Below are positions 405-20,210 of a DNA stretch of 20,210 bases, in pieces. The notes beneath the pieces are model-generated. The model had not been told where the DNA came from. It did not search any database and saw nothing but the letters and a program-made list of their open reading frames with translations. This DNA is from a virus. The stretch lies in the IMG/VR virus record IMGVR_UViG_3300031841_003928, positions 1 through 20,210 of that record. One strand, written 5' to 3'. Both the position numbers and the translations under genes were made by a program. The first letter of the stretch is position 1, and every line of letters begins with the position of its first letter.

Positions 405-488
405 GGCCACAGTATAGAAAAATGGCGCGCTGTTTTGTTGTTGCGTTTTGGGATTGACTAGCTAGTTGCGTAATGCAACAATCCGAGC
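405..488. promoter_or_regulatory. Divergent promoter/operator region between repressor and Cro-like gene
   Basis: This 84-base region separates two divergent HTH genes. GTTGC occurs at 440 and 465, and the inverted form GCAAC at 475-479. The pair at 465-479 makes a 15-base inverted repeat (GTTGC-5-GCAAC). A perfect 10-base palindrome, ACTAGCTAGT, lies at 457-466. A leftward -10 candidate, TATACT, reads 416 to 411. A rightward candidate is TTGACT at 454-459 with AACAAT at 477-482, spacing 17. Both -10 boxes sit about 6-7 bases from a start codon, which suggests leaderless messages. Promoter strengths are guesses. Confidence 0.55.
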
Positions 489-3064: not shown

Positions 3065-3891
3065 TGCGTCTCGGCGAGGTCTACATAGACAGCCTTGTCG
3101 TCGGCGAGCGCCATCGCGCCTTGGTTAAGGACCGCGTTGGCGCACTCGCTGAATCCATGCGCGAAATCGGGCTTCAAAACCCGATTCACGTTTGGTCGCC
3201 AGATCCGACAGAGGCCTATCTGGTGGCGGGGCGTCATCGCCTCGCCGCCGCCGAGTCCTTGGGCTGGGATGAAGTTCCATGCTTCTTCGTCGATATGGAC
3301 GAAATCGACCGCGAACTATGGGAGATTGACGAGAACCTGATGCGCGCGGGGCTGTCGCCAGCGGAAGAGGCGGCGCACCTCGCGAGGCGGAAGGAGCTTT
3401 TCGAGGCGCGGAATGTAGGTGGGGAAAATTTCCCCACCAAGCCACAGCACCAAAAAGGTTTCGCTCAAGACACCGCTGAGAAAACCGGTTCCGACAAATC
3501 CGGGGTCAATAAGAAGCTCGCCCGCGCCGAGGCCATTCCAGACATTGAACGCGTGGCCGGGACATCCCTCGACAAAGGCGTTGAGCTTGATGCCCTTGCC
3601 AAGATGGGCGAGTTAGATCGCGAGGACATCATCGCCAAAGCTCAGGCGGGTGAACGGGTTTCGGCCCGCATGTCCGGCGCATCAAAACGCGCCTTAGCCG
3701 CCGAAACAAATGACCTGAAGATTGAAGCGGTTGAAAGGGTCGCCGCACAAATCATCGATTACGTCCCAGGCGAGCAATGGGATGTTCTTAAGTCCAATTG
3801 CTACAGCGGCGGCATGAAAGCGCTTGGCGATGCGATCGCCCGTCTTACTGGCGTTTCCGTCTTTGACAACACAAGCGCGGGCCGGGGTTAG
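3061..3891 (+). CDS. ParB/Spo0J-like N-terminal domain protein
   Basis: A 276-residue protein with a classical ParB N-terminal domain: RVGALAESMREIGLQNPIHV at about 25-44, then YLVAGRHRLAAAESLGW at 53-69. G57-R58-H59-R60 matches the GxxR nucleotide-binding motif of CTP-dependent ParB proteins. ELWEIDENLMRAGLSPAEEA follows at 86-105, as in ParB-type nuclease/regulator proteins of phages. The later part, KTGSDKSGVNKKLARAEAI, looks like an HTH linking to a C-terminal helical domain. No ParA is present, so chromosome-type partition is unlikely. Phage ParB-like proteins usually act as DNA-binding regulators or nucleases. It overlaps the upstream gene by four bases and is separated from rusA by two. 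Confidence 0.8.
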   Translation: MMRLGEVYIDSLVVGERHRALVKDRVGALAESMREIGLQNPIHVWSPDPTEAYLVAGRHRLAAAESLGWDEVPCFFVDMDEIDRELWEIDENLMRAGLSPAEEAAHLARRKELFEARNVGGENFPTKPQHQKGFAQDTAEKTGSDKSGVNKKLARAEAIPDIERVAGTSLDKGVELDALAKMGELDREDIIAKAQAGERVSARMSGASKRALAAETNDLKIEAVERVAAQIIDYVPGEQWDVLKSNCYSGGMKALGDAIARLTGVSVFDNTSAGRG

Positions 3892-5806: not shown

Positions 5807-6290
5807 CGACGTGGACGGAGCCATTGCCGTTGTCGAGCGAATGCTGGCCCCGGCTAAACCGGAGGATGTCGCGGTTGTTCTCGGCAAGACGCTGGTGATG
5901 TGGACACCTCCGAAAGAATTGAACCTGCAAGACGCCATGCCGCTCTACGTCCATGCGTTGTCGGATTTGCCGATTGACCTGCTGCGGTCCGCGATGGCGA
6001 AGGCGACGAAGAGTTGCGAGTTCTTCCCCCGTCCAGCGACGATCCGGGATCAAGTTGCCAGCGAGTTTTCCGCCCGTCGTCATACGCTATCCCGCATGAA
6101 AGCCGCCCGTGGGAAAGCGGCGCACGAACAGGCCTTGGAACGGGATCGTCGGGAGCGCGCCTCGGCCAAGGCGGCGGAGGTACGTGAGATCGGCGAGCGA
6201 TTACGTGCGATGTCCGATGGCGTGGTGGCGCGGACCAAGGCGATGAAGGGCGGGCCAGTCCCCGGCGACACCATCGAGGCCGCTGAATGA
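5688..6290 (+). CDS. Putative helicase-loader-like replication protein
   Basis: The ATG at 5688, with GGAGG at 5678-5682, gives 200 residues; a longer frame to 5556 would lie wholly over the initiator's C-terminal domain. The central part, PEDVAVVLGKTLVMWTPPKE then MPLYVHALSDLPIDLLRSAM and CEFFPRPATIRDQV, resembles phage proteins that follow initiators. In those, a helical bundle ends in a F(F/M)P.PAE(I/L)R-type motif and the protein may load the replicative helicase, as lambda P does. The C-terminal third is a charged helix rich in A, R, K and E. I see no Walker motif, so it is not a DnaC-type ATPase. Family assignment is by pattern and position only. Confidence 0.5.
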   Translation: MAQAVARAAGVLETRSDEVWQAPSWLAMWKADQSVPVSLDDVDGAIAVVERMLAPAKPEDVAVVLGKTLVMWTPPKELNLQDAMPLYVHALSDLPIDLLRSAMAKATKSCEFFPRPATIRDQVASEFSARRHTLSRMKAARGKAAHEQALERDRRERASAKAAEVREIGERLRAMSDGVVARTKAMKGGPVPGDTIEAAE

Positions 6291-6784: not shown

Positions 6785-7432
6785 ATGGACCGAGAAATGA
6801 TTTTGAATGCCCCGGCGACACCAATCCCGTTCCGTCGCCACGGCACCGTGGAGCGCCGAGAGGGGATCAACGGGCGATTTGTCCCGCGCCGGTATGCCGA
6901 TGAAGAAAACCTCGATTGGTATGCTCTGGTGACGAAGCCCCAGCACGAATTCGTCTGCGCCGGGAAGATCCAGGACATGGGCCATGCCGTCTTCGTTCCG
7001 TATGCCTCGGAATGGCGTCGGAAGAGCCGCTATAGCAAGGCCAAGGTGCAGCGCCATTACCCGTTGATGCCTCGATACATCTTTGTCGGTTTCGATTACC
7101 TGCCGCCGTGGCTGGACTTGCACGCCGCTGATTGCATGCAGGGCGTGGTGGGCGTTGGTGGCTACGCGAAGAAGCTTCCGACCGCGCGCGTGATCGAGCT
7201 GATCAACACTCACGGCGCGGGCGTATACGTGGCTCCGGCGGCGCAACAGTTCATGCGGACACACCACGAATTCGCCGTGGGGGACCGGGTGCAAATCGTC
7301 GACGGCCCGCTCTATGAGCACTTCGCCGAGGTGACCGCGATCGACGGCAAAAAGGCCCGTATCTTGTTTGAGATTTTCAATGAGGTACTGGATATAGAAA
7401 TTGCGCTTGACGATCTCGTGATTGCTCGGTAG
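6785..7432 (+). CDS. NusG/RfaH-family transcription elongation (antitermination) factor
   Basis: A 215-residue protein with AAGGAGGA 9 bases before the ATG. After a 43-residue basic leader comes an NGN domain: DWYALVTKPQHEFVCAGKIQ at 44-63, then HAVFVPY at 67-73 and the family block HYPLMPRYIFVGF at 91-103. A KOW domain follows at about 163-190: FAVGDRVQIVDGPLYEHFAE then VTAIDGKKARILFEIF. This is the layout of specialised NusG paralogues (RfaH, UpxY, LoaP), which bind RNA polymerase and suppress pausing and termination on chosen operons. It stands at the end of the early genes, immediately before a 383-base structured gap and the packaging/head operon, where lambda places Q. It is therefore a good candidate late-gene antiterminator. 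The family is clear; the target is inferred. Confidence 0.88.
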   Translation: MDREMILNAPATPIPFRRHGTVERREGINGRFVPRRYADEENLDWYALVTKPQHEFVCAGKIQDMGHAVFVPYASEWRRKSRYSKAKVQRHYPLMPRYIFVGFDYLPPWLDLHAADCMQGVVGVGGYAKKLPTARVIELINTHGAGVYVAPAAQQFMRTHHEFAVGDRVQIVDGPLYEHFAEVTAIDGKKARILFEIFNEVLDIEIALDDLVIAR

Positions 7433-7815
7433 GATTCTGGTAATGGCCCATGCGCGATCTGCGTCAGCGCCCTTTCGGCGACCGAGACGCAGCGGACCCA
7501 GGAAGCGGCGAGTATCAACCGGCTTCTCCCAATCTGGAAAAATGTCCAAAATCAGCGCAAGTTGTTTATCCGCTCCCGAGCAATCGGCGGCGGGTTTTTG
7601 ATTCCCGGTTCTGAATCTGGCTCAACCAGGTAGTAGGAGCCGCCCGGCGGGACTTCGGTCCCGTCCTTCAATTCAAACGTCCTGGCACGGACACAACGAC
7701 GCTATGGGTTGGGGGATGTTCCTGGCCGGCGTCGTTGGTGTCGGGACGCTCTAGTTTCACGCGGGTGAGTGAGGGCTGGTAAGCCCCAGACTTCAATCGT
7801 TTGAAAGGAAGCAAC
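7433..7815 (+). other. Early/late junction with structured RNA elements
   Basis: 383 bases without a confident gene. Hairpin one: CTGCGTC (7459-7465) pairs with GACGCAG (7486-7492) and encloses CGCC/GGCG (7468-7471, 7477-7480) with a CTTTC loop. Hairpin two: GGCGGGAC (7646-7653) pairs with GTCCCGTC (7658-7665) around a TTCG tetraloop closed by C-G, with one G-T pair. Neither has a U-tract. No clear -35/-10 pair was found. It could be the late leader on which the NusG-like factor loads. Low-confidence reading frames on both strands are listed separately. Confidence 0.5.
7450..7614 (+). CDS. Possible small protein, 54 aa
   Basis: An open frame starting with ATG 17 bases after the NusG-like stop. 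It encodes RDLRQRPFGDRDAADPGSGE, YQPASPNLEKCP and VVYPLPSNRRRVFDSRF. Composition is plausible for a small basic phage protein, but the ribosome-binding site is weak. It covers the first hairpin and overlaps a minus-strand frame. I recognise no family and consider it uncertain. Confidence 0.28.
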   Translation: MRDLRQRPFGDRDAADPGSGEYQPASPNLEKCPKSAQVVYPLPSNRRRVFDSRF

Positions 7816-8245: not shown

Positions 8246-8627
8246 ACCTGCGGGTACAGCTAAGAGACAGCTTCCAAAGGCGATGGAGGCTCATCAGTTC
8301 AAGCCCGGCCACTCCGGCAACCCAAAAGGGCGCGGCAAAGGTGTTCGCAACAAGCTTGGAGAGGCGTTCTTGGAGGCCCTCCACGAGGACTTCAACGAGC
8401 ATGGCGCGGCGGCAATCACCAAGTGTCGGGAAGACAGCCCCGTGGCGTACGTCAAGGTCTTGGCCAGCATTTTGCCGAAGGATCTCAATGTCACAATCAA
8501 CCCGTTGGAAGAACTGACCGATGCCGAGCTTATCGAGCGGATCGGAGAACTCAGGGACGCCGTTGACTCCGCTCTTGGTGGAACTGGCGCGGTTGCAGGC
8601 GGAACGGAAGAGGCGACTCGACACTAA
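8232..8627 (+). CDS. DUF5681 protein, likely small terminase subunit
   Basis: A 131-residue protein with the DUF5681 signature FKPGHSGNPKGRGKGVRNKL at residues 23-42, then EAFLEALHEDFNEHGAAAI and YVKVLASILPKDLNVTINPL. DUF5681 proteins lie directly upstream of large terminase genes in many alphaproteobacterial phages. The basic N-terminus and helical core suit a DNA-recognising small terminase, though biochemical proof for the family is lacking as far as I know. The C-terminal third (ELTDAELIERIGELRDAVDS) is acidic and helical. It overlaps the large terminase frame by up to 107 bases. Confidence 0.75.
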   Translation: MAGRKPAGTAKRQLPKAMEAHQFKPGHSGNPKGRGKGVRNKLGEAFLEALHEDFNEHGAAAITKCREDSPVAYVKVLASILPKDLNVTINPLEELTDAELIERIGELRDAVDSALGGTGAVAGGTEEATRH

Positions 8628-9942
8628 CCTTCTCGCCCGATACCTGCCTTATTCCAAGCAGAAAGATTTTCACCACGAGACGGTCCGCGAGCGGCTGTTC
8701 ATGGCGGGCAACCAGCTCGGGAAGTCCTGGGCGGGGGCTTTCGAGTGCGCGATGCACCTGACTGGGAAGTACCCGGATTGGTGGGAAGGCAAACGCTTCA
8801 AGAAGCCTGTGATTGGCTGGGCGGCGGGAGAGACGGGCGAGGTTGTCCGCGACACCATCCAACGGTTGCTGTTGGGCCGTGTTGAGCCCTGGGGGACGGG
8901 GGCGATCCCGCAGGCGGATGTAATCAGCGCTGATTCCGCTCTCGGAACGCCAGGTTTGAAGGGCGTCATCAAGGTTCGTCATGTGTCGGGCGGTGAAAGC
9001 CAATTAACGCTGAAGTCGTACAATCAGGGGCGGGAGAAGTTCCAGGGCGAAACGCTCGATTTTTGCTGGTTTGACGAAGAGCCGCCGATTGACATCTTCA
9101 CCGAGGGGCTGACGCGCACGAATACGACGCAAGGGCCGATTTGGATGACGTTCACGCCGCTCAAAGGCATGTCCGATGTTGTGGTGAGGTTTTTGATGGA
9201 GGAAAACCCTGACCGCTCGGTTACTCAGATGACCATCGAGGACGCCGAGCACTACTCGCCGGAACAGCGTGAGAAGATTATCGCCAGCTACCCAAAGCAC
9301 GAACGGGAAGCCCGGACGAAGGGCGTGCCGATTATGGGCTCGGGTCGCGTCTACCCGATCTCGGAAGAGGAAATCACCATCGCGCCGTGCCCGATCCCGC
9401 CGCATTGGGCGCGCATCGTGGGCATGGATTTGGGCTGGGATCACCCGACAACCGCCGTTTGGCTGGCATGGGACAAGGACACGGACACGATTTACGTCAC
9501 GGACGCCTATCGTAAGCGCGAGACGGTCCCGGCGATGCACGCGGCGACGATCAAGGCCAAGGGGGAATGGATGCCCGTGGCCTGGCCTTCGGACGCTGGG
9601 AGCCACGGCAGGGACGGCGCAACGCCGCTTGTCGAGCAGTATCGTGGTCACGGGCTGAAGATGCTGTCTGATAGAGCGCAATTCGATGACGGCGGCGTAT
9701 CCGTCGAGGCCGGGCTCATGGAGATCCTGGAAAGGATGGAAACGGGGCGGTTTAAGGTGTTCGCTCACCTCAATGAGTGGTGGGAAGAGTTCCGGATCTA
9801 TCATCGCAAGGACGGCAAGATCGTCAAGGAACGCGATGATCTGATGGATGCGACCAGGTACGCGGTGATGATGAAGCGCGAGGCCAGGACGAAGCCGGCG
9901 CCGCACAAGCCCATCAACGTCAATACAAGCTGGGTCGAGTAA
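8521..9942 (+). CDS. Terminase large subunit
   Basis: The ATPase-nuclease motor that pumps and cuts phage DNA at the portal. Walker A is GNQLGKS (63-69). Walker B is LDFCWFDEE (179-187), with D185 and E186 or E187 as acidic residues. Motif III is WMTFTPLKG (208-216). The RNase H-fold nuclease starts at IVGMDLGWDHPTTAVW with D303, continues at AWPSDAGSHG with D358, and ends at DDLMDATRYAVM with D443, the three acidic residues expected for metal binding. The length of 473 residues is normal for the short terminases of SU10-like and P22-like podoviruses. The start is uncertain: the ATG at 8521 lies 107 bases inside the upstream gene, and a GTG at 8578 would give LARLQAERKRR near the N-terminus, as in relatives. 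Confidence 0.93.
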   Translation: MPSLSSGSENSGTPLTPLLVELARLQAERKRRLDTNLLARYLPYSKQKDFHHETVRERLFMAGNQLGKSWAGAFECAMHLTGKYPDWWEGKRFKKPVIGWAAGETGEVVRDTIQRLLLGRVEPWGTGAIPQADVISADSALGTPGLKGVIKVRHVSGGESQLTLKSYNQGREKFQGETLDFCWFDEEPPIDIFTEGLTRTNTTQGPIWMTFTPLKGMSDVVVRFLMEENPDRSVTQMTIEDAEHYSPEQREKIIASYPKHEREARTKGVPIMGSGRVYPISEEEITIAPCPIPPHWARIVGMDLGWDHPTTAVWLAWDKDTDTIYVTDAYRKRETVPAMHAATIKAKGEWMPVAWPSDAGSHGRDGATPLVEQYRGHGLKMLSDRAQFDDGGVSVEAGLMEILERMETGRFKVFAHLNEWWEEFRIYHRKDGKIVKERDDLMDATRYAVMMKREARTKPAPHKPINVNTSWVE

Positions 9943-10371: not shown

Positions 10372-10578
10372 ATGTCTCAAGCACTAGCTGTCCGCGTTGC
10401 GCGGCTGGATCAATCCCTCACGGCTGCGCTTGATCTGATCTCGGATCTCCGTGCGAAGTCTGCCGATCTCGAAGAGCGTGTCGAGGATCTGGAAACGCGG
10501 CCAGCCGATGTTTCTGGGACGGTCGTTGAAATCATGCCCCGCAAGCGCGGGCGCCCGAGAAAGCTGGCCAATGTCTGA
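10372..10578 (+). CDS. Coiled-coil protein with an AT-hook-like tail
   Basis: A 68-residue protein; the ATG at 10372 has AGAGG 6 bases upstream (TTG at 10366 is less likely). A heptad-rich helix, RVARLDQSLTAALDLISDLR then ADLEERVEDLETR, predicts a coiled coil. The C-terminus PRKRGRPRKLANV contains RGRPRK, which matches the AT-hook core (GRP flanked by basics), so it may bind the DNA minor groove. The stop overlaps the portal start by 8 bases (ATGTCTGA). Function is unknown. Confidence 0.65.
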   Translation: MSQALAVRVARLDQSLTAALDLISDLRAKSADLEERVEDLETRPADVSGTVVEIMPRKRGRPRKLANV

Positions 10579-12895
10579 TTCATCCCGATCCGATAGCAAG
10601 CTTAGGGCGGCCTTATCGTCGCAACTGCGCTCGGCTATTGGGTATGACAATGACGAGCTATCGTCCGAACGCGCCACCGCTTGGCGTTATTACATGGGCG
10701 AGCAATCGACCCTGCCGAGCATCCCGGGACGATCGAAGGTCATGTCCCGCGACGTTTACGAGACGGTCGAAACGGTCATGCCGTCATTGGTGCGGGTGTT
10801 TCTCGGCACGGATCAGGTGTTCCGATTTGAGCCCGAAGGCGAAGAGGACGAAGAGGCGGCGCAGCAGGCGACGGATTATGTCTCGTGGCTGATGCGTCGC
10901 AAGGGCAATTTCCGGCAGATATTCGATTGGATGAAATCGCCGCTGATTTACAAGAACAGCGTCCTGCACGTCTGGTGGGAGGAATCCGAAACCGAAGTCA
11001 CCGAGGAATACACCGGCCTTAGCGTTGATGAGATGACGGAGATCGTCAACGACGAGAGCGTGACGGTTGAAGAGATTGAAGAGTACCCGGCGGAGGTTGA
11101 AATGCCCGCCGAGCCGCAAATGCCACCGCAGCCGATGGGGCCGGATGCTGGCGGCATGCCTCAAGCGCCGATGCCGGGTGACGCCGGCGGGATGCCGGCC
11201 ATGCCGATGCAAGAGCCGATGGCGCTCTTTGACATCAAGATCCGCCGCGTCAAAACCAGCGGCGAAATCAAGATGGAGGCTCTCCCGCCCGAAGAGTTCT
11301 TGACCAACAGCCGCGCCAAGTCTTTGGAAGACGCGCGCATGGTGGCCCGGCGCACGCGGGTATCGAAGAGCGACCTGTTGAAGCGCGGCTATGACGAGAC
11401 GGAAGTCGAGAGCCTGAGCGCCGACGATGATCTGTATGAGGAAACCGAGGAGCGATTTGACGACCTCGAATACGATGACGACAACGACGCCACCAATGAG
11501 GCGGCGCAACTGTGTCGGATCTATGAGGTCTATATCCAGTTCGATTATGACGACGACGGCGAGACCGAATGGCGGCGAGTGGTCATGGGCAACGGTCCGG
11601 ACTCTCCGGTTATTTTCGAGAATGACAAGCACGAGGGATTGCTGCCGTTCTGTGATCTAACGCCGATCATCCTGCCGCATCGCCGCATCGGGTTGTCAAT
11701 GGAGGACGGGTCGCGAGAGGTCCAGCGGTGGAAGTCGACCTTGCTGCGGATGATGATGGACGGGCTTTATCACTCCGTCTTCCCGCGCAAAGTCGTGGAC
11801 ATGAGCCAGATTGAGCCCGAGTTCTTCAACGACGTGTTGAACCAGGCGCCGGACGCCATCATCCGCGCCAAGGGGCCGAATGCGATCGTGCCTCTCCAGA
11901 CGACCTGGGAAGGCCAGCGCGCCTTTCCGATGCTCGAATATGTCGACGGCCAATTGGTCCGCCGCACGGGCGTTACCCCGATGGGGCCGGATCTTAATCC
12001 GAACGCATTGCAGCCGGAGACGGCGGAAAAGGTCCGCGAGGACAGCAATCAGGGCCGCGAGCGAACCGAGCTTATCACGCGCGTGTATGCGGAGACGGGT
12101 TTCAAGCAACTGGCCCGGTTGATGCTCCATCTCGTGACCAAGCACCAGGACAAAGAGCGCATTATTCGCCTTCGCGGCAATTGGGTGCCGATGGACCCGC
12201 GATCATGGAACGCGGATATGGACATCAAGGTGTCTGTTGGCTTGGGAACCGGCAATCGTGACCAGCAGATGCAGCGCTACATGGTGATAGCTCAGAAGCA
12301 GGAGCAGATCCTACAGGTGGCGGGGATGCAAAACCCGCTGGTGACGCTGAAGAACTATTACAACACGCTGGAGAAGATGGTCGAGGCGGCGGACTTGCCG
12401 GACGTTGATATTTTCTTCACCGACCCGGACAAAAACCCGATGCCGCCGCAACAGCCGGGGCAAGATCCGAAGGTGGCCGAGGCCCAAGGCAAGATGCAAA
12501 TGGAGATGCAAAAGCTCCAAATGCAGCAGCAAATGGACGGCCAGAAGATGCAAGCCGAGGCGGCCATGGCGGAGAAGAAATTGCAAGCCGATTCCGCTCT
12601 TGCCGCTCAGAGGCTCCAGGCGGAACAGCAGATCAAAGCCCAAGAGGCCCAGCGCAACGCGGCAATGCAAGAGCGGCAGTTCCAGCAACAGTTGGAACAG
12701 CAGCGCGTGATTGAGGGCATGAAGCTGGAGGCCTCCGAGCGCCAGGCCGAGCGGGCGTATCAATTGGATGTCCAGAAGATGGCCGTCGATCAGCAATTCC
12801 GCGAGCGGGAGCTGGTGATGGAAGCCGAATTGGAACAATTGAAGATGGCCGCCGGCTCGCGTGACGGGCAGGGCAACATCAACGTGAGCGACTGA
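10571..12895 (+). CDS. Portal protein (SU10/P22-type)
   Basis: 774 residues from the ATG overlapping the preceding stop; an upstream frame to 10451 overlies another gene. The N-terminus has the signature WRYYMGEQSTLPSIPGRSKV then SRDVYETVETVMPSLVRVFL (38-78), as in large podovirus portals. A proline/methionine/glycine-rich insert (about 173-217, with repeated DAGGMP) splits the early domain. The stem/wing region follows with DLTPIILPHRRIGLSMEDGS. The C-terminal ~150 residues are a long Gln/Met/Lys-rich coiled coil (QKLQMQQQMDGQKMQAEAAM and similar) that probably forms the barrel in the virion. The portal is the dodecameric channel for DNA entry and exit and binds terminase. The size and tail match the P22-like class, so a short-tailed virion is likely. 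Confidence 0.88.
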   Translation: MSDSSRSDSKLRAALSSQLRSAIGYDNDELSSERATAWRYYMGEQSTLPSIPGRSKVMSRDVYETVETVMPSLVRVFLGTDQVFRFEPEGEEDEEAAQQATDYVSWLMRRKGNFRQIFDWMKSPLIYKNSVLHVWWEESETEVTEEYTGLSVDEMTEIVNDESVTVEEIEEYPAEVEMPAEPQMPPQPMGPDAGGMPQAPMPGDAGGMPAMPMQEPMALFDIKIRRVKTSGEIKMEALPPEEFLTNSRAKSLEDARMVARRTRVSKSDLLKRGYDETEVESLSADDDLYEETEERFDDLEYDDDNDATNEAAQLCRIYEVYIQFDYDDDGETEWRRVVMGNGPDSPVIFENDKHEGLLPFCDLTPIILPHRRIGLSMEDGSREVQRWKSTLLRMMMDGLYHSVFPRKVVDMSQIEPEFFNDVLNQAPDAIIRAKGPNAIVPLQTTWEGQRAFPMLEYVDGQLVRRTGVTPMGPDLNPNALQPETAEKVREDSNQGRERTELITRVYAETGFKQLARLMLHLVTKHQDKERIIRLRGNWVPMDPRSWNADMDIKVSVGLGTGNRDQQMQRYMVIAQKQEQILQVAGMQNPLVTLKNYYNTLEKMVEAADLPDVDIFFTDPDKNPMPPQQPGQDPKVAEAQGKMQMEMQKLQMQQQMDGQKMQAEAAMAEKKLQADSALAAQRLQAEQQIKAQEAQRNAAMQERQFQQQLEQQRVIEGMKLEASERQAERAYQLDVQKMAVDQQFRERELVMEAELEQLKMAAGSRDGQGNINVSD

Positions 12896-12896
12896 G

Positions 12897-15038
12897 ATGC
12901 TTAAACGAAACCAGCAAGACCTAGCGCCCCTCGGGCGCCGCAACCGCGTTGTTCCAGGGTTGTTGGAATTCGCGGAAGAGAACCCGGTTGAGGCGGGTTT
13001 GTTGGCGGCGAGCATGGCCCCTGTGCCGGTGGTTTCCGACGTGGCTGGTTTGCTTGGCGACATCACCGGGATGGTTAAGCGCCCAGAAGATAGAACGTGG
13101 GCAAACGCGGTACTTGCTGCGCTAGGGTTGCTCCCGTTCGTGCCGGCGGGGATCACGAAAATCACCAAGTCGGTGGACCTGCCCGATCTTCGAAAGATGG
13201 ACGTTGCCGAGGGGACGGCGGTTGCCCGCAAGGAGCCGCACCTCATTCCAAGTCACGACAAGGCGGATGGGAAATACGTTGGCGGACCGCGAATGGTAAA
13301 GAGCAAGCGCGGGCTAACCAATTTGCGTAACCGCTTCGACGCCTATGTGGCGGCGGACCCTCGCGGTGGCGACTGGTATGACCGCTACCGCAATTCCGTG
13401 ACCGACGTGACCGGCGGTGATCCCCGAGATGCAGAATGGATGAGTAAAATGGAGGCTCAGTGGTCTGCCGGAGTTTCTCCTGAGGGCGAGCTTGGTTTTG
13501 CCCTGAAGGAGAACAACGCGGCGCTGGCGGGATCTCCAACGAAGTCAGCGCGCCCGGCGCAGCATGAGGCGTTCAAGCGCGCGATCGATGCGAATGATCC
13601 GAATGAATTGCAACTCGGGAAAAAGACGGGCGAGTATGGCCGCCGTATTGACCCGAGCCAGCCACACCCGCCCACGGCGACGGGCGTAAACGATTTCCGC
13701 CACGCGCGGAATTTCGACTACACCGAGGTGGGTGGCGGCTCTCAGCGGGACGCACTGACGGATGCACAGCATCGGTTCTTGGACTATGAGACCGCGCTTG
13801 CGGTTAACCGCGCCAACCACGCGAATATCGGCGGTCGGTCGGACTGGACCGGCGAGCAGTTGCAGGCGGCACCTTGGGTAAGGCAAAAGGCCGAAGCCAT
13901 TTTGGAGCAGCGACCGGCGATCCTTGAGAAGTACCGCAAGCTGGGCTTGCCGGAACAGGACGCATACCGCTTGGCATATGAAGAGGCTTTTACCGAAGCC
14001 ACAAAGACCATTGGGGAACATTTCCCGAAGCACACCGCATACGCCACCCACGAAAGCATGGTTGGCCCAAATACCGGCCACATGCCGGGTTCCGTGAATG
14101 CAACGCAGGCCGAACGTGAGGCCTTCGCGGTAGACCCGCGCTCAACTTGGGCCAATGCCCCCGGTGGCCGTGACGCGATCTATTCTGGCCGTCGTTTGGA
14201 TGACACGGGCGTTGCTATGAGGGTGCGCCCCACGCAGCCCATGCAGGGACTGTATCAACCGCCCGGCGGGTTGCTTGAGGTCAACCCTGGCGAAGTCGCG
14301 CGTCCACTGGTGGCTTTTGACTCGGGCAAGGTCAAGTCTTTACCGCAAACCGACCGAGACATTCTGGAGGCTGGTGAGGCGGTTCGCGCATATGTGGACG
14401 CGCAGGACGCGGGCGCCGCGCACAAAGTGTGGGCCGGGGGCGCGTCCGGGCAGTCCAACAGCATGTTTGTTCCAAGGTCGGGGCCGGCTACGCAGGAACA
14501 GTTGATGGCGGTTCGTGATGCCGCTGCGCCGTATGGCCTAGGGGATGTAGTGGATACGGGCGAGGGGCTGACGGTTACTAGTTTTTATCCAGATCCACCT
14601 AAGATGTCTTCTAAGCAGGCCGGCTTACTAACAGACGCCCTGGATGGGGCGCTTCCCGGCGAAGCAGTAGTTCCGCGCAGGGTTAAGGTTGATTCGGTCT
14701 ATGAGGACTACGTTGATGCGTGGAAGGCTGGTGAGGGGTCTGGGAAGGCGACGGAGCAGCTACTCCGCAAAATAAACAAGAGCCCGGAACTCCGCGCGGC
14801 GTTTGACAACAACCCCCATCTAGCTGAGAACGCGCTTAACCGGTTGCAGCGAGACAAGGACTGGTCGTCAAAATGGGGCGGCACTAGGGAAGACATCCAA
14901 ACCGCCCGCTCGGTTATTGCTGGCGGGCCAGGATGGGTTGGCAGGTTGGAAAAATTGGTCAAGAAGGGCGTTTTGCCGGCGGCTTTGGTGGGGGCTGTTC
15001 TGTCGAACGCTCGCCTTTCTGGCGAAGAACAGTCTTAG
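12897..15038 (+). CDS. Large putative virion/internal protein, 713 aa
   Basis: Starts one base after the portal stop. Hydrophobic stretches lie near the N-terminus (VEAGLLAASMAPVPVVSDVA at 31-50; AVLAALGLLPFVPAGI at 71-86) and near the C-terminus (GVLPAALVGAVLSN). The motif GDITGMVKRPEDRTWANAVL is shared with large proteins that follow portals in some alphaproteobacterial phages. The middle is hydrophilic, with no enzyme motif that I can see. Short-tailed phages carry ejection proteins that form a channel across the envelope, and membrane-active ends with a soluble core would fit. It may instead be a toxin-like or polyvalent protein. The last 80 bases overlap a gene on the opposite strand. 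Confidence 0.6.
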   Translation: MLKRNQQDLAPLGRRNRVVPGLLEFAEENPVEAGLLAASMAPVPVVSDVAGLLGDITGMVKRPEDRTWANAVLAALGLLPFVPAGITKITKSVDLPDLRKMDVAEGTAVARKEPHLIPSHDKADGKYVGGPRMVKSKRGLTNLRNRFDAYVAADPRGGDWYDRYRNSVTDVTGGDPRDAEWMSKMEAQWSAGVSPEGELGFALKENNAALAGSPTKSARPAQHEAFKRAIDANDPNELQLGKKTGEYGRRIDPSQPHPPTATGVNDFRHARNFDYTEVGGGSQRDALTDAQHRFLDYETALAVNRANHANIGGRSDWTGEQLQAAPWVRQKAEAILEQRPAILEKYRKLGLPEQDAYRLAYEEAFTEATKTIGEHFPKHTAYATHESMVGPNTGHMPGSVNATQAEREAFAVDPRSTWANAPGGRDAIYSGRRLDDTGVAMRVRPTQPMQGLYQPPGGLLEVNPGEVARPLVAFDSGKVKSLPQTDRDILEAGEAVRAYVDAQDAGAAHKVWAGGASGQSNSMFVPRSGPATQEQLMAVRDAAAPYGLGDVVDTGEGLTVTSFYPDPPKMSSKQAGLLTDALDGALPGEAVVPRRVKVDSVYEDYVDAWKAGEGSGKATEQLLRKINKSPELRAAFDNNPHLAENALNRLQRDKDWSSKWGGTREDIQTARSVIAGGPGWVGRLEKLVKKGVLPAALVGAVLSNARLSGEEQS

Positions 15039-15135
15039 GCCCGGCATCTACTCGACCATAAATTTCTGCCTCTTCTTCGGGGGTGTAGGGCGGCTCGTGA
15101 TAGATGTTGCCCTTGGGTGTGCGACGAACGACCAT
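14959..15135 (-). CDS. Minus-strand small protein, 58 aa (cassette gene 2)
   Basis: An ATG at 15135 with GGAGG 8 bases upstream, one base after the stop of the other minus-strand gene, so the two form an operon. The product VVRRTPKGNIYHEPPYTPEE then EEAEIYGRVDAGPKTVLRQK ends in a disordered proline/lysine tail, PPPKPPAKRPS. Its 3' 80 bases overlap the end of the 713-aa gene convergently. I recognise no family. The strong ribosome-binding site and coupling support it as real. Confidence 0.6.
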   Translation of the reverse strand: MVVRRTPKGNIYHEPPYTPEEEAEIYGRVDAGPKTVLRQKGERSTEQPPPKPPAKRPS

Positions 15136-15136
15136 T

Positions 15137-15415
15137 TTAGGCCTCCATTCGATCAATATCGCGCTCACAATACATGACCGCGCGCTTGATGGCTTCTCGC
15201 TTGGATCGGGAGGAGTAGCGGTTGAACCCGTTTCCATAGGTCCACCACCTGCGGTTGCCGTTCATGTGCGAGATGACGCCCCAGAACACCTTGCCTGCGC
15301 CGGGGATGACTTGCGGGCGGTAGATGCTGATTTCGGTGTGACCGGGGTAGCGCGCTTCGACAGTGGTAACGCGTCCGTGCTGAGATCTTGTGGGCAGTTT
15401 AGGCATGGCGTTCAT
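15137..15415 (-). CDS. Minus-strand small basic protein, 92 aa (cassette gene 1)
   Basis: ATG at 15415 with GAGGAGG about 9 bases upstream. A beta-rich N-terminal half (GRVTTVEARYPGHTEISIYR, KVFWGVISHMNGNRRWWTYG) is followed by a basic helix, NRYSSRSKREAIKRAVMYCE. The net positive charge could mean nucleic-acid binding. I recognise no family. It is the promoter-proximal gene of an oppositely oriented pair within the head operon, the usual form of a moron. A promoter should lie in 15416-15521, but I could not identify a convincing one. Confidence 0.7.
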   Translation of the reverse strand: MNAMPKLPTRSQHGRVTTVEARYPGHTEISIYRPQVIPGAGKVFWGVISHMNGNRRWWTYGNGFNRYSSRSKREAIKRAVMYCERDIDRMEA

Positions 15416-15521
15416 TGGAGCCTCCTCTTTAGTGCTTTAGGCGGGATGCCTGGGCGCACAAGCTGAAGATCAAATGCCCATGCACTGAATATGGCGATTT
15501 TTGCGGAGATATCAACGAAAA

Positions 15522-16523
15522 ATGCGTATCTTTGCCCCGCTTTTGCATCGCACGGTCGGAGACTTCATCGAGCAAGCGATTTACGCGGCGACGGTAAGGG
15601 AACAGTTCGAGAAGGCCAGCTTAGACGCCTATTACGTTGATGACCGTGCCTATAAGGCCGAGATCCTCGCGATGCTGCCGCAATTCGATCGGCTTTGGGC
15701 GGGGATGCCTATTCCGCTCGATTGGTTCGATAGCGCGGCCCACGGGACAATCCCGAAGTTCCCGGCATGGGAAGCGGCGCACGTTGATCAGAGCGAAATC
15801 ATCCTGCCGCCGATGGCGTGCAAGCGGGAATATCTCCCGGCGTTCGACAGGCTGGCGCAATTCACGCTCCCTGATGGATGGCCGGTGCCGGATTTCCCGA
15901 CCTGGCACGCGGTGATTCACTACCGAGAGGCGGGATACGAGCATCGGGTTGATAGGCCGAACCGGGACATCGACCCGGCCCAGGCGAATGAAGTCATCGA
16001 CCATATCATTTCCAGGGGCGGGCACGTTGTCCGCATCGGTCATGAAGACATGACGCGGTTGCCGGCGCGCAAGGGATACGCGGACTGGTCGAGGATGTCT
16101 TTCAAGCATCAGGCGGGCGCGGTGTCGAGCGCTAGGCTGTTTGTGGAGATTTCCCCGAGCGGGCCGGCGGCACTGTGTCTGGGCTTCAATGTCCCATGGC
16201 TTCGGTGCAATTCGGTCGAGGTCAATGGCCCGACGCGGGGGCACGACATGATGCTGATGCAACACGTTATGGCCGATGGGGCTGAAGTGCCGACAAGCGT
16301 TCTGATCGATCGGGGCGAATTCACCGAGCGCGGGGTTGAGGGCGCGGGGATGGAGTTTCGAAAAAACGCCACCGATGAGATTGCCCGCGCGATCGATGTG
16401 ATGCTGGACCGGGGGCGCGATGAATTGTCGGAGACGGCCCCGACGAACAGGATCGAGATGCCGCCCCGCATTGTTAGAAAGCACTCGATTGTGCGGTGGG
16501 GAGAAATGAGGGCGGCGGCTTGA
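15522..16523 (+). CDS. TIGR04372-like glycosyltransferase
   Basis: 333 residues from the ATG at 15522; a TTG at 15501 is the alternative. It opens APLLHRTVGDFIEQAIYA, as in GT-B-type enzymes. Conserved-looking blocks are HYREAGYEHR (133-142), PNRDI (146-150), GGHVVRIGHEDMTRLP (166-181), SFKHQAGAVSSARLFVEISP (193-212) and SGPAALCLGFNVPWLRCN (213-230). The order N-DI ... GG-V-RIG--M--LP ... K ... S-ARLF ... SPSG-----F--P--- N matches what I know of the TIGR04372 putative glycosyltransferases of LPS/O-antigen clusters. It is coupled by TTGA to a second glycan-type gene. The role would be transfer of a sugar to a surface or virion acceptor. The family match is by eye. Confidence 0.6.
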   Translation: MRIFAPLLHRTVGDFIEQAIYAATVREQFEKASLDAYYVDDRAYKAEILAMLPQFDRLWAGMPIPLDWFDSAAHGTIPKFPAWEAAHVDQSEIILPPMACKREYLPAFDRLAQFTLPDGWPVPDFPTWHAVIHYREAGYEHRVDRPNRDIDPAQANEVIDHIISRGGHVVRIGHEDMTRLPARKGYADWSRMSFKHQAGAVSSARLFVEISPSGPAALCLGFNVPWLRCNSVEVNGPTRGHDMMLMQHVMADGAEVPTSVLIDRGEFTERGVEGAGMEFRKNATDEIARAIDVMLDRGRDELSETAPTNRIEMPPRIVRKHSIVRWGEMRAAA

Positions 16524-17647
16524 TCTACTTCATGATTGAAAACCGTGACCGGGAGTTATGGTCCCGGCTTCTCGTCGCGGGGGCATTGCACGATCGGGGA
16601 ATATCAAGCGTCATCGGAAGCCAGCGGGTGTTGGCGCCGAACCTTGAATCGCTCCCGGTGGGATGTGTCGTATTCAAGGGCGAAAACAAGGCCATGCGCG
16701 GATGGATGGAGACGGCAAAGCGGGCCGGTCACAACATCGCGGTGATGGATGAAGAGGGGTTGGCGGTTCGTTGCCCGGTGCATTTCCGGTCGGACATCCT
16801 GCCGGGTCTTCCGGTCGATGTAACCTACGTTGCAAACGAGTGGCAGGCCGAACACGCGATCAACGGCAAATGGACGGGCAACCCGAGGCTGGATCTGCTG
16901 AAAAGGCCCGAGATTTACGGCGATCCCGATCGATCAGGGTATCTGCTGGTCAACACCAACACCAGCGGGGCCAACCCCCGAGGCGGCGACATCAAGGCTT
17001 ATCATGCGATGTGCATGTCAGCGGGGGTGTTCGATAGCCGAGAGCAGTTCATCGCTCATATCGAGCACGATTGGACGTGCATCAAGAAGGTGCGGGAGTT
17101 TATCGAGGCATACGACGGCGAGGTGGTGATCAGGCCGCATCCCGGCGAGAACCCGGACCCGTGGCTAAATCTATATCGAGGCAACCCGAGAGTTCACGTC
17201 GCCGTTACTGGGAATCACATTCAATGGATGCGGGGCGCGCGCTGTGTCTTGCACACGGGCTGCACGACGGCACTTGAGGCGGCGCATATGGGCGTGCCTT
17301 CGGTATCTCTGTTGGCGGGTGATCACGATGACACTGTTTTCGCGACGAACTATCCACCTTTCCCAGCTACCGCCGACATCGGCGAGGCGCTTGATTTGGT
17401 CGAAGCCGCCGAGGTGCCGGGCGTGGATGGCGACGGCGAGGCCCACAAGCGGATTGCGGCGGATCTTGTCCCGCGTGCTGGCGAGAGCCGAGCGGTGGAG
17501 TTGGCATATACGGCGGTCTCGGGCGTGGACCCGTATTTCCTGAGCAAGGCCAAGATGGGGGTGAGTGACCTTCGTGATTTCGCGGGCAAGTGGGGATTGG
17601 ATCTGCCGATCCGCCAAATCGGTGACAGCGTATTTCAAGCGGGGTGA
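16520..17647 (+). CDS. Surface-carbohydrate biosynthesis (GT-B/glycerophosphotransferase-like) protein
   Basis: 375 residues from the TTG at 16520, which overlaps the previous stop (TTGA). This start keeps the first strand IYFMIENRDRELWSRLLVA intact; GTG 16496 and ATG 16532 are alternatives. Blocks typical of TIGR04396/CDP-glycerol-transferase-like proteins are seen: IGSQRVLAP (32-40), VMDEEGLAV (75-83), GNPRLDLL (120-127), VVIRPHPGENP (202-212) and HTGCTTALEAAHMGVPSVSL (245-264). The last is the donor-binding loop and EA---G-P signature of GT-B enzymes. The acceptor could be a host envelope glycan, a capsid or DNA. Its presence between a structural gene and the scaffold is unusual. The C-terminal 40 residues, KAKMGVSDLRDFAGKWGLDL and beyond, look like an appended helical segment. 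Confidence 0.65.
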   Translation: MIYFMIENRDRELWSRLLVAGALHDRGISSVIGSQRVLAPNLESLPVGCVVFKGENKAMRGWMETAKRAGHNIAVMDEEGLAVRCPVHFRSDILPGLPVDVTYVANEWQAEHAINGKWTGNPRLDLLKRPEIYGDPDRSGYLLVNTNTSGANPRGGDIKAYHAMCMSAGVFDSREQFIAHIEHDWTCIKKVREFIEAYDGEVVIRPHPGENPDPWLNLYRGNPRVHVAVTGNHIQWMRGARCVLHTGCTTALEAAHMGVPSVSLLAGDHDDTVFATNYPPFPATADIGEALDLVEAAEVPGVDGDGEAHKRIAADLVPRAGESRAVELAYTAVSGVDPYFLSKAKMGVSDLRDFAGKWGLDLPIRQIGDSVFQAG

Positions 17648-17670
17648 GCCCCAAAGTTAAGGAGACGACA

Positions 17671-18573
17671 ATGCCTCGTCCTGACACCATGACAATCCCC
17701 GGCGCGGGGACGATGACCCGGCGCGGGCCTTCGATGATGCCTGGGGCCTCCATTTGGCCCGAGTGGCAAAAGGGGCTCCTGTCCGACAAGCAAATGAACG
17801 AGGTCATGCCGCATTTCGCGGGCGGCATTTATGGCGAGGGCGGATACCAGGTGCGAACGCCAGCCAACCCGCAGTCTTTCGGGCTTCTCGGCGCGGGCGA
17901 CCCGCGCGTCTGGGGCGGGACGGCGGCGGAAAACATCATGGCCCAGCCACAACCGCCGCAATCAATGCAGCCGGTCCAGTCACAAGGCCTGCTGGCCCAG
18001 CCCACGGGGCAAGGCGGCAACGGGCTTCTGTCGAATAACCCGAACGGTCAACTGCCGCAGGAACAGCTATCTTTGATGGCCAATCAACCGCAGGAACAGC
18101 TATCTTTGAGGGCCGGAACACCGATGGCTCCGGAGCCGCTGTCTTTGATGCCCAACCAACCGCAGGGCGTGGACCCGATGGCGGGCAATCAAATCCGCCC
18201 GGTCACACCGTCCGGCATTTGGGATGTGCAACCCGACCCGAGCGTGACAAGCGATGCCGCGACGGCACCGGGCTTCACCAATCGGCAGGTATTCGAGATG
18301 ATGAACGGCCACTTGCTCGGCGGTGACCCGATGGAAACGGCGGGGCAGAGGGGCGTGAATATGCAATACGCTCAACACCTCATGAACGGCGGTAATGGCG
18401 GCGCGAATGGCGGCGTGTTTGGCTCGGAAGGCAACGGCGGGTTCTCTCCTGTCGGCGGCTTTACCGAGGAAGATTGGGACACCCAATACGACCCGAGCAA
18501 TCAATCCAATATGGCCGATTGGTACACGTCCTATATTCGCAACAATAGCGGTCCAGACGGGAGTTCGCGATGA
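17671..18573 (+). CDS. Glycine/glutamine/proline-rich hypothetical virion protein
   Basis: The ATG at 17671 with AAGGAG 6 bases upstream decides the start, giving 300 residues; a longer frame to 17644 lacks a site. The N-terminal part PRPDTMTIPGAGTMTRRGPS then WPEWQKGLLSDKQMNEVMPH is followed by a low-complexity stretch rich in Q, P, N and G with tandem PQEQLSL units. A glycine/asparagine-rich linker (MNGGNGGANGGVFGSEG) leads to an acidic, aromatic C-terminus (EEDWDTQYDP ... MADWYTSYIRNN). It is probably disordered and virion-associated. It overlaps the next gene (ATGA). I recognise no family. Confidence 0.65.
   Translation: MPRPDTMTIPGAGTMTRRGPSMMPGASIWPEWQKGLLSDKQMNEVMPHFAGGIYGEGGYQVRTPANPQSFGLLGAGDPRVWGGTAAENIMAQPQPPQSMQPVQSQGLLAQPTGQGGNGLLSNNPNGQLPQEQLSLMANQPQEQLSLRAGTPMAPEPLSLMPNQPQGVDPMAGNQIRPVTPSGIWDVQPDPSVTSDAATAPGFTNRQVFEMMNGHLLGGDPMETAGQRGVNMQYAQHLMNGGNGGANGGVFGSEGNGGFSPVGGFTEEDWDTQYDPSNQSNMADWYTSYIRNNSGPDGSSR
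18055..18148 (+). repeat. 33-bp tandem repeats in the Q/P-rich gene
   Basis: The 22-base block CCGCAGGAACAGCTATCTTTGA, starting at 18055, recurs identically at 18088 (period 33). A degenerate third copy starts near 18130 and ends with GTCTTTGA. They encode PQEQLSLMANQ-type units (PQEQLSL twice, then PEPLSL). Recent duplication by slippage or unequal recombination is likely; copy number may vary between relatives. Confidence 0.85.
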
Positions 18574-18845
18574 GCGATGAAGACGCCAAGCGGCGGCTAG
18601 AGGAACAACAGCGCGCGGGCGAAGAAGCCCAGCGCATCCTCGGGAGCGATTTGTTCAACAAGGTTTTTGACGATCTCCGCGAGCTTTACATCCGCGATGC
18701 GGTCAGCGCTCAGGAAGCGACCGCGAGGCTGGATCGCCTGAAAGCGGTCGAGGTTCTTGAACACGTGCGGGGCGCGCTTGGCGCGGCTTTGATGGCGGGT
18801 AAGGCTTCTCAAGCCATGCTCGGGCACAAGCACGAGGTCGTATAG
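18570..18845 (+). CDS. Small helical protein, 91 aa
   Basis: Starts at an ATGA overlap. Almost all-helical: DEDAKRRLEEQQRAGEEAQR, then SDLFNKVFDDLRELYIRDAV and ATARLDRLKAVEVLEHVRGA. Small helical proteins with a LF...F..L.......A ... LR.L...L pattern commonly lie between portal and scaffold in podoviruses, but no function is established to my knowledge. It is the last gene before the intrinsic terminator at 18876. Confidence 0.65.
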   Translation: MSDEDAKRRLEEQQRAGEEAQRILGSDLFNKVFDDLRELYIRDAVSAQEATARLDRLKAVEVLEHVRGALGAALMAGKASQAMLGHKHEVV

Positions 18846-18875
18846 AGAATTCCCTGCATTGACAGGGGTTAGTTG

Positions 18876-18897
18876 GCGTCCTTCGGGGCGCTTTTTT
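18876..18897 (+). terminator. Intrinsic terminator inside the head operon
   Basis: GCGTCC (18876-18881) pairs with GGGCGC (18886-18891), one G-T pair, around a C(TTCG)G tetraloop, then six T (18892-18897). This is a textbook Rho-independent terminator, placed between the 91-aa gene and the scaffold ribosome-binding site at 18926-18932. It would cut scaffold and capsid expression unless it is read through or a promoter lies downstream. Confidence 0.85.
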
Positions 18898-18938
18898 CAT
18901 TTGCGGTAGCGCCCGAGGGCGTCGCAAGGAGGTTGAAA

Positions 18939-19958
18939 ATGGCAGTTGTCGGTAGCGCCTCACCAGGCGTCGATGACCTTAATCTCGACGGTTTCGAGGC
19001 GTTCGCGTCTCAGGAATTGGACGCCGAAGACGGCATTAATCGAGAGCAAGACACCGAGACGGTTGATGGTCCTTACGAGGGTAGCCCAGAGGCCGACGAG
19101 GGGGCAGAAGAGCAGCCAGAAGGCGATGACGCCGAAGGTTCTGAAGCCGAGGACGAGGAATCGTCCGAATCCGAAGACGATGCGACTGAAGCCGAGGGCG
19201 AAGAGAGTCCAGAACAGGCCGAGGGCGATGACCTTGAAGACTTTGTCGAATGGGAACATCCCCAGCACGGCCCGATCCGGGTAGCTCTTGACGAACTCCG
19301 TGACGGTTACATGCGGACCGAGGATTACACGCGGAAAACCACGTCGTTGAGTGACGAGGCCCGCGAACTCCAGAACCGCGCGCAAGATTGGGAGCGCACG
19401 AAGGAACGGGAGTTGCTGTTTCTACAGGCCAACACGCCTCAGAAGCCGCAATGGGATTCGGATGATCCAATCGGATCGGCTGAAGCTCAGCACCAGTATG
19501 AAGCTGTGATGCAACAGCGCGCCGCTTTCTTGCAACAGCATGAACAGCGACACGCCCACGCTCAACAGCAGTACGCGGCTGAGCAGGCGACATTGCTTCC
19601 CCGGCGCATCCCTGAATGGGCGACGCCGGAAGTGGCAAGCCGCGAAAAGGCCGGCGTTCGGGACATGCTTCTGTCGTCGGGGTACGCCCAGGATGAAATC
19701 AACGGTTTGGCAGATAGCCGGGCCGTCGTCATCGCCCGAAAGGCGTATCTCTATGACCAGGTAATGGCCGAACGGAAATCCAAAACATCGATCGCGAAGA
19801 AGAAGGTGGCCGCAAAGCCGCCGGTTCCCGTGCGGTCGGCTGGTCCCGCTCCGAAGCCGAAAGGCGATCCCAAGAAAGCGCGCCTTGTGAAAGCACACCG
19901 CCAGAAGGGCAGTGCTGAATCAATGGCGGCCATTCTCATGGCTGACATGATGAAGTAA
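18939..19958 (+). CDS. Scaffolding protein (putative)
   Basis: 339 residues from the ATG with AAGGAGG 6 bases upstream; a longer frame to 18873 overlies the terminator. The N-terminal ~100 residues are extremely acidic (EDEESSESEDDATEAEGEES and similar). A conserved-looking block, LRDGYMRTEDYTRKTTSLSD at about 120-139, is typical of podovirus scaffold/head-assembly proteins. Long glutamine-rich helices follow (YEAVMQQRAAFLQQHEQRHA), and a strongly basic C-terminus (SKTSIAKKKVAAKP, GDPKKARLVKAHRQKG) probably binds the capsid shell. It lies directly before the major capsid gene, as scaffolds do. It would drive procapsid assembly and leave before or during DNA filling. Confidence 0.8.
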   Translation: MAVVGSASPGVDDLNLDGFEAFASQELDAEDGINREQDTETVDGPYEGSPEADEGAEEQPEGDDAEGSEAEDEESSESEDDATEAEGEESPEQAEGDDLEDFVEWEHPQHGPIRVALDELRDGYMRTEDYTRKTTSLSDEARELQNRAQDWERTKERELLFLQANTPQKPQWDSDDPIGSAEAQHQYEAVMQQRAAFLQQHEQRHAHAQQQYAAEQATLLPRRIPEWATPEVASREKAGVRDMLLSSGYAQDEINGLADSRAVVIARKAYLYDQVMAERKSKTSIAKKKVAAKPPVPVRSAGPAPKPKGDPKKARLVKAHRQKGSAESMAAILMADMMK

Positions 19959-19989
19959 CCCTTCGGCGGAGGACATAAGGAGCCTTGAA

Positions 19990-20210
19990 ATGGCTGTCCC
20001 CTCCGGAACGACTACCACGTTCGACCTCACGGGCGTTCGTGAAGACTTGAGTAACCTGATATTCAACATCTCACCAACGGAAACTCCAGCAGTGAGTAAC
20101 ATGAAGAAGGGCACCGCAACCAACACCTACCATGAATGGCAGACGGATTCCCTCGCCGCCGCCGCGTCGAATTCACATCTCGACGGCGACGATTCGAGCC
20201 CGACTACCAT
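19990..20210 (+). CDS. Major capsid protein, N-terminal part (SU10/PF17236-like)
   Basis: ATG at 19990 with AAGGAG (19977-19982) 7 bases upstream. The frame is cut by the right edge after 73 complete codons. VPSGTTTTFDLTGVREDLSN then LIFNISPTETPAVSNMKKGT and TYHEWQTDSLAAAASNSHLD is the N-terminus of the SU10 major head protein family (PF17236, DUF5309), an HK97-fold capsid. The HEWQTD--- A ... GDD pattern is diagnostic to my eye. High expression is expected, consistent with its strong ribosome-binding site. Confidence 0.88.
   Translation, partial: MAVPSGTTTTFDLTGVREDLSNLIFNISPTETPAVSNMKKGTATNTYHEWQTDSLAAAASNSHLDGDDSSPTT

Follow-up and report, generated by a model that had tools for sequence, protein, structure and literature searches.

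A predicted terminator before the scaffold and capsid genes of a lambda-organised viral contig, and two unrelated antiterminator-type genes at the Q position

We have analysed a 20,210-bp viral contig, referred to here in its entirety as the window, in which an intrinsic-terminator sequence, T2 (18875-18897, plus strand), is located within the late region immediately before the scaffold and capsid genes. The interpretation we favour, with some reservation, is that T2 is a late-operon terminator of a temperate, lambda-organised phage and is passed by host RNA polymerase loaded with an antiterminator. The more interesting part of the finding is that two unrelated antiterminator-type genes are swapped before one and the same terminator, T1, at the start of the late region. 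The earlier note on this DNA, which had regarded the terminator as a possible reporter site for a NusG-like factor, is partly supported by these results.

T2 is an intrinsic terminator by sequence, consisting of a stable GC-rich hairpin followed by a U-rich tract. The stem (18875-18892) contains seven pairs, two of them G-U, closed on a C(TTCG)G loop, the letters reading GGCGTCC-TTCG-GGGCGCT and then T to 18897, with a tail of six T. The 20-nt piece folds at -11.5 kcal/mol, a value attained by none of 200 shuffles, and its T-tail score is the highest among the matches listed on either strand. The C(TTCG)G hairpin plus six T between late genes described previously is therefore confirmed. With T2's own stem and tail values as cut-offs, shuffling the whole plus strand 60 times gave one match of this grade on stem and tail jointly (0.017 per shuffle), and of 2000 shuffles of the 93-nt gap 7 gave such a match. 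A tail of at least 4.6 combined with a stem of -8 or better is found at two matches on the plus strand of the window, T1 and T2. In 12000-20210 the terminator-like class shows no enrichment (11 matches versus 8.5 ± 2.6 in shuffles). The summed score rewards strong GC stems even when the tail is poor, and by it T2 (22.2) ranks below the best match in 17 of 30 shuffles and below three other sites in the window (plus 2062, plus 7568 and minus 11507). A smaller hairpin with a weak tail lies just 5' of T2 (18851-18868, plus strand). No Rfam family matched the window at its gathering score, the T2 hairpin being matched only at E values of 0.35, 1.1 and 2.7. Judged by these features, T2 would be expected to terminate transcription.

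The gene preceding T2 encodes 91 aa (18570-18845, plus strand). In five named phages whose portals are related, a small gene separates portal from scaffold, and the 91-aa gene is by position its counterpart. The stop codon of the 91-aa gene lies 29 nt before the start of the T2 hairpin, and T2 should therefore escape masking by translating ribosomes. A TTG start at 18873 that would carry translation across T2 was dropped as a candidate, the codon being TCG in relatives L002-L006. Behind T2, the scaffold ribosome-binding site AAGGAGG can be read directly at 18926-18932, followed on the same strand by the genes for the head scaffolding protein (18939-19958; phrog_3927, 2e-30) and the major capsid protein (19990-20210; PF17236 SU10_MCP, 1.3e-16; phrog_1328, 2.6e-20), the window ending inside the latter and containing its 5' part. 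These matches bear out the scaffold and capsid assignments made earlier. The capsid frame is uninterrupted in the window's part of the gene and in L007 and L008, is cut off after 49 codons in L002, L003 and L004, and in L005 and L006 shows alignment breaks suggestive of the same capsid-gene insertion. Group I introns (RF00028, 70-78 bits) are present in both relatives searched, at 1446-1684 of L002 and at 7190-7428 and 8088-8315 of L004.

Of the six best promoter-like sites whose -10 falls in 18846-18925, none has a -10 that begins beyond 18897, in agreement with the earlier statement that the 41 bases between the terminator and the scaffold gene hold no promoter. The best site near T2, TTGGCG-16-TTTCAT with its -10 at 18895, overlaps the hairpin and ranks 17 of 20179 plus-strand positions; its -35 is TCGGCG in five of seven relatives (L002-L006) and is kept in two (L007 and L008). 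T2 is thus positioned as an internal late-operon terminator, lying among late genes of the same strand with nothing but this one weak, overlapping site as a promoter behind it. As no convincing promoter lies behind T2, transcription of the scaffold and capsid genes must pass it. Directly behind T2 is GCGGTAGCG, which we take to resemble the E. coli ops element. It was dropped as an ops/RfaH recruitment site, since the T2 copy is one of many matches with three mismatches and is kept in relatives that have no NusG match; matches with up to three mismatches number 41 in the window versus 26.5 ± 5.5 expected, a count reached in 1 of 100 shuffles. A direct repeat, CGGTAGCGCC, flanks the scaffold start with exact copies at 18904-18913 and 18950-18959 and is not beyond chance, 3 matches being found versus 2.05 expected with one mismatch allowed.

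A closely related scaffold protein is encoded by seven contigs, all of which keep the letters of T2. Little weight attaches to this conservation, as the beginning of the adjoining scaffold gene is conserved just as strongly. A wider survey covered 78 loci having a scaffold gene by rule, namely the window, the five named phages and 72 of 80 capsid loci (at least 80 exist), eight of the 80 being dropped for want of a scaffold ORF or of upstream sequence. Of the 77 more distant capsid-family loci, three have any terminator-like match near the scaffold start and none approaches the strength of T2, which is not general in the SU10-type capsid family. The 23 letters of T2 are also present in five further contigs, with different neighbours, and the sequence is therefore generic. 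T2 thus appears to be a terminator of generic type that this clade acquired. Three copies, at L141 3385-3407, L147 4593-4615 and L150 11964-11986, are situated between genes read as a tail/baseplate operon and possibly represent another internal late-operon terminator.

The window is organised in the order repressor-like gene, ParB-like gene, RusA-like gene, ORFs of 100 and 56 aa, NusG-like gene, T1, packaging genes and head genes. The repressor-like HTH protein is encoded on the minus strand (114-410; PF13560, 3.9e-10), and a candidate early promoter, TTGACT-17-AACAAT (454-482, plus strand), located in the gap between this gene and the first rightward gene, ranks 1 of 20179 plus-strand positions. 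Packaging and head genes on the plus strand include those for the terminase large subunit (8521-9942; PF03237, PF17289) and the portal protein (10538-12895; PF23899 SU10_portal, 7.3e-186). An integrase match was obtained in two of seven records (G004 and G001) and not in the window; its presence in relatives fits a temperate life. No T7-type polymerase was matched in any of 13 records, in a search whose controls also matched nowhere. The phage would appear to be temperate and reliant on host RNA polymerase.

Between the portal and the 91-aa gene, close relatives differ from one another in a mosaic fashion. In the window this region contains an insertion carrying two surface-carbohydrate genes, a TIGR04372 glycosyltransferase and a TIGR04396 gene (15501-17647, plus strand; both above the curated cut-off), possibly concerned with modification of the host surface. 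Most of the TIGR04396 gene aligns in L003-L007, the TIGR04372 gene nearly whole in L003 and in part in L004-L007. Two overlapping 92-aa ORFs without an NCBIfam match run against the otherwise rightward direction of this late region (14959-15415, minus strand); beside them, on the same strand, is a promoter-like site at 15515-15488. The five named phages have the order terminase, portal, small gene, scaffold and capsid and possess neither this cargo insertion nor T2.

At the place of the lambda Q gene, the window encodes a NusG-like protein of 215 aa (6785-7432, plus strand), which matches PF02357 above cut-off (1.8e-9; 38.4 bits against 22.2). Matches to UpxY (2.1e-11), RfaH (5.2e-11), NusG (2e-7) and LoaP (2.8e-6) all fall under the curated cut-offs, the scores for the specialised paralogues being 44.1 of 100 bits for UpxY, 42.8 of 144.5 for RfaH and 27.5 of 125 for LoaP. 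A candidate late promoter, TTGACG-17-TAGGAT (7407-7435, plus strand), is situated at the end of this gene. It is second by rank among the 20179 plus-strand positions, and 143 nt separate the start of its -10 from the T1 core. T1 itself (7568-7600, plus strand) consists of a stem at 7568-7595 followed by TTTTGATT, and an exact 26-mer of it recurs in five further contigs. A second hairpin follows T1, GGGAC-TTCG-GTCCC (7646-7665, plus strand), whose stem is GGGGT/GCCCC or GGGGC/GTCCC in relatives, pairing being retained through the changes. The gene order of a Q-type system, an antiterminator-type gene, a terminator and then the late genes, is therefore present. No Q-family protein occupies the Q position, where a NusG-like or a DUF6456 protein is found, and by analogy the protein at this place may work like Q rather than be Q.

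The five contigs sharing the T1 26-mer are the same five of 18 records with a DUF6456 match (PF20057) above cut-off; the remaining 13 comprise the window, seven close relatives that gave no match to the T1 26-mer and the five named phages. In all five T1-bearing relatives, a DUF6456 gene of 173 aa lies just before T1, its product scoring 49.5 bits against a cut-off of 26.3, and in all five the rank-1 sigma-70-like plus-strand site of the locus falls between the DUF6456 stop codon and T1. These promoter ranks are positional evidence only; the scores are ordinary, every one of 20 shuffles having a best site (11.5-14.7) above that of the window's plus strand (11.2), and the minus strand also holds scores above the plus-strand best. 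The DUF6456 proteins are 99-100% identical among the five contigs, which are therefore close to one observation. The gene upstream of the Q position, the 100-aa ORF in the window, is similar in the DUF6456 relatives (51% over 59 residues, 1e-17), and comparison of the NusG-like and DUF6456 proteins with each other revealed no similarity. A NusG-domain search was positive in one of eight records, the window; because several of the eight are fragments, absence of NusG is firm only for contigs that reach T1. Relatives of the NusG-like protein were found neither in viral_contigs, by a pattern-based search, nor in the phages set, the phages set yielded no DUF6456 protein, and searches of genome_contigs with the portal and with DUF6456 found none. 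No solved structure was found for either protein.

T2 is unchanged in three of the five T1-bearing contigs, those that reach it. As these three have DUF6456 before T1, T2 is probably overridden by whatever occupies the Q position and not by NusG specifically. Of the proposal that the NusG-like protein overrides T2, the presence of an antiterminator-type gene upstream and in the right place stands, while the tie to NusG in particular is weakened.

The literature on DUF6456 proteins bears on this exchange. Homologues of GafA, the activator of the Rhodobacter gene transfer agent (GTA), are described as annotated DUF6456 (PMC9638019; PMC9765227), and in Caulobacter GafA is reported to be split into GafY and GafZ, the latter corresponding to its C-terminal part (PMC9632790). 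GafZ itself presumably carries the DUF6456 domain. According to the Caulobacter work, GafZ is an experimentally supported antiterminator that works with GafY and lets polymerase starting from the GTA promoter pass terGTA, or rrnB T1 substituted for it (PMC11150451). The Rhodobacter study, by contrast, interprets GafA as acting in initiation or in the manner of a sigma factor, brought in through the omega subunit, and does not take it for an antiterminator (PMC9638019). The resemblance to the Caulobacter GTA lies in a structural cluster whose internal terminator is overridden by GafZ, the relatives of the window having DUF6456 before T1; in contrast, terGTA consists of three 150-bp repeats after the first gene and the window has a NusG-like gene instead (PMC11150451). 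At least five unrelated antiterminator types are reported at the Q place in lambdoid phages (PMC8022706), and processive passage through terminators is described for Xp10 p7 (PMC4513864) and for Tn916 canT (PMC11658703).

Hairpins of this kind are also found in the late operons of well-known phages. With a tail of at least 4.6 and a stem of -8 or better as the rule, 9, 6, 2 and 6 terminator-like matches, some inside genes, are predicted in the main late operon of lambda, of HK97, of P22 and of N15, versus means of 0.7, 1.5, 0.3 and 0.9, respectively, in 15 shuffles each. The sites named below are such predictions or record annotations. In lambda, a hairpin detected by the scan (6098-6117) lies in the D-E gap, capsid gene E starting at 6135, and in N15 a terminator-scoring hairpin (5983-5998; annotated stem-loop 5980-6004) precedes gene 8, the major capsid gene, which starts at 6018. 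Like T2, both combine a GC-rich hairpin with a T run inside a late operon, and both phages have a Q or Q-like antiterminator; unlike T2, which lies 41 nt before the scaffold gene, these hairpins precede the capsid gene with the T run near its start codon. The putative terminator of HK97 (3307-3328; annotated 3309-3335), at the end of the portal gene, likewise precedes the protease and head genes, but it is accompanied by six more annotated on that strand, whereas T1 and T2 stand out in the part of the late operon that the window covers. P22 has no terminator-like match before its scaffold gene and one after the coat gene. Given that lambda and N15 have such hairpins immediately in front of the major capsid gene and HK97 has one at the portal end, the placement of T2 cannot be called paradoxical, as it had been. 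Phage L provides a further parallel, a predicted terminator within a one-promoter late operon, for which the same two functional ideas are discussed (PMC8022706). The Q position and T1 resemble the lambda Q-pR'-tR' arrangement (annotated at gene 23 in P22), an antiterminator-type gene closing the early genes being followed by a promoter, a terminator and the late genes, with the differences that the protein is NusG-like or DUF6456 and not Q and that the window's promoter is a consensus match only.

Combined, these observations suggest the following sequence of events. Late transcription would start at the promoter just after the gene in the Q position, NusG-like in the window and of the DUF6456/GafA family in relatives, and polymerase loaded with the antiterminator would read through T1 and then, about 11 kb on, through T2. 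The NusG-like or DUF6456 protein would be the antiterminator acting here and staying on the polymerase as far as T2; no loading site for it was identified. Polymerase lacking the antiterminator, arising from spurious starts, from read-through of other promoters or in the prophage state, would stop at T2, and we propose that production of the scaffold and capsid proteins would therefore be largely confined to lytic growth. Passage of T2 by less than all of the polymerase may, in addition, adjust the balance between upstream and capsid mRNA.

What terminators do within phage late operons is called unknown in one account, which gives partial termination as one proposal (PMC8022706), and attenuation is the main rival to regulated passage. 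T2 would then be leaky, passing a fixed share of polymerase and so setting portal and cargo mRNA against scaffold and capsid mRNA with no dedicated factor. The moderate stem, at -11.5 kcal/mol with its two G-U pairs, would suit such a device as would the published proposal, yet an attenuator would lower the products most needed, and T1 before the late genes together with an antiterminator-type gene at the Q position point to regulated passage; we regard attenuation as unlikely. A post-transcriptional role, in which the hairpin protects or defines the processed ends of scaffold and capsid mRNA and termination is incidental, seems less likely still. Annotated stem-loops do recur around the capsid genes of N15, HK97 and P22, the P22 record likening the location of its own to those of HK97 and lambda; some have little or no T tail, and the same gap in HTVC106P and ctXG6705, two of the five named portal-family relatives, contains a hairpin that lacks a T run. 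The best T tail of the window among the matches listed is nevertheless on T2, where mRNA protection would not need it.

There is little probability that T2 is an ordinary operon end with a scaffold/capsid promoter overlapping or directly following the hairpin. The one site that could serve, TTGGCG-16-TTTCAT, ranks high enough to be considered, but position 2 of its -10 is not A, its -35 is altered in most of the relatives, and scant room is left before the ribosome-binding site at 18926. Least probable, in our estimation, is that T2 arrived with the cargo as a 'moron' terminator that keeps cargo transcription out of the capsid genes. The mosaic portal/91-aa-gene region with its surface-carbohydrate genes, and the joint absence of insertion and T2 from the five named phages, would accord with such an origin; against it, T2 follows the 91-aa gene, whose position sets it apart from the cargo, and the plus-strand promoter-like sites of the cargo are not outstanding. 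This origin is in any case compatible with passage of T2 by antiterminator-loaded polymerase.

If the antiterminator explanation is pursued to the Q position, the latter may be an exchangeable slot in which either a NusG paralogue or a GafA/GafZ-family protein acts on the same T1 and T2, a proposal we put forward tentatively and consider somewhat doubtful. Should the terminator alone hold, the finding would be ordinary, such internal late terminators being already known. Were the slot real, a single operon would be served by two unrelated proteins, each providing Q-like late antitermination, and phage late control and GTA antitermination would have a common origin. The same T1, and in the three contigs reaching it the same T2, with different antiterminator-type genes makes antiterminator dependence directly testable, and confirmation would tie GTA control to the control of phage late genes.
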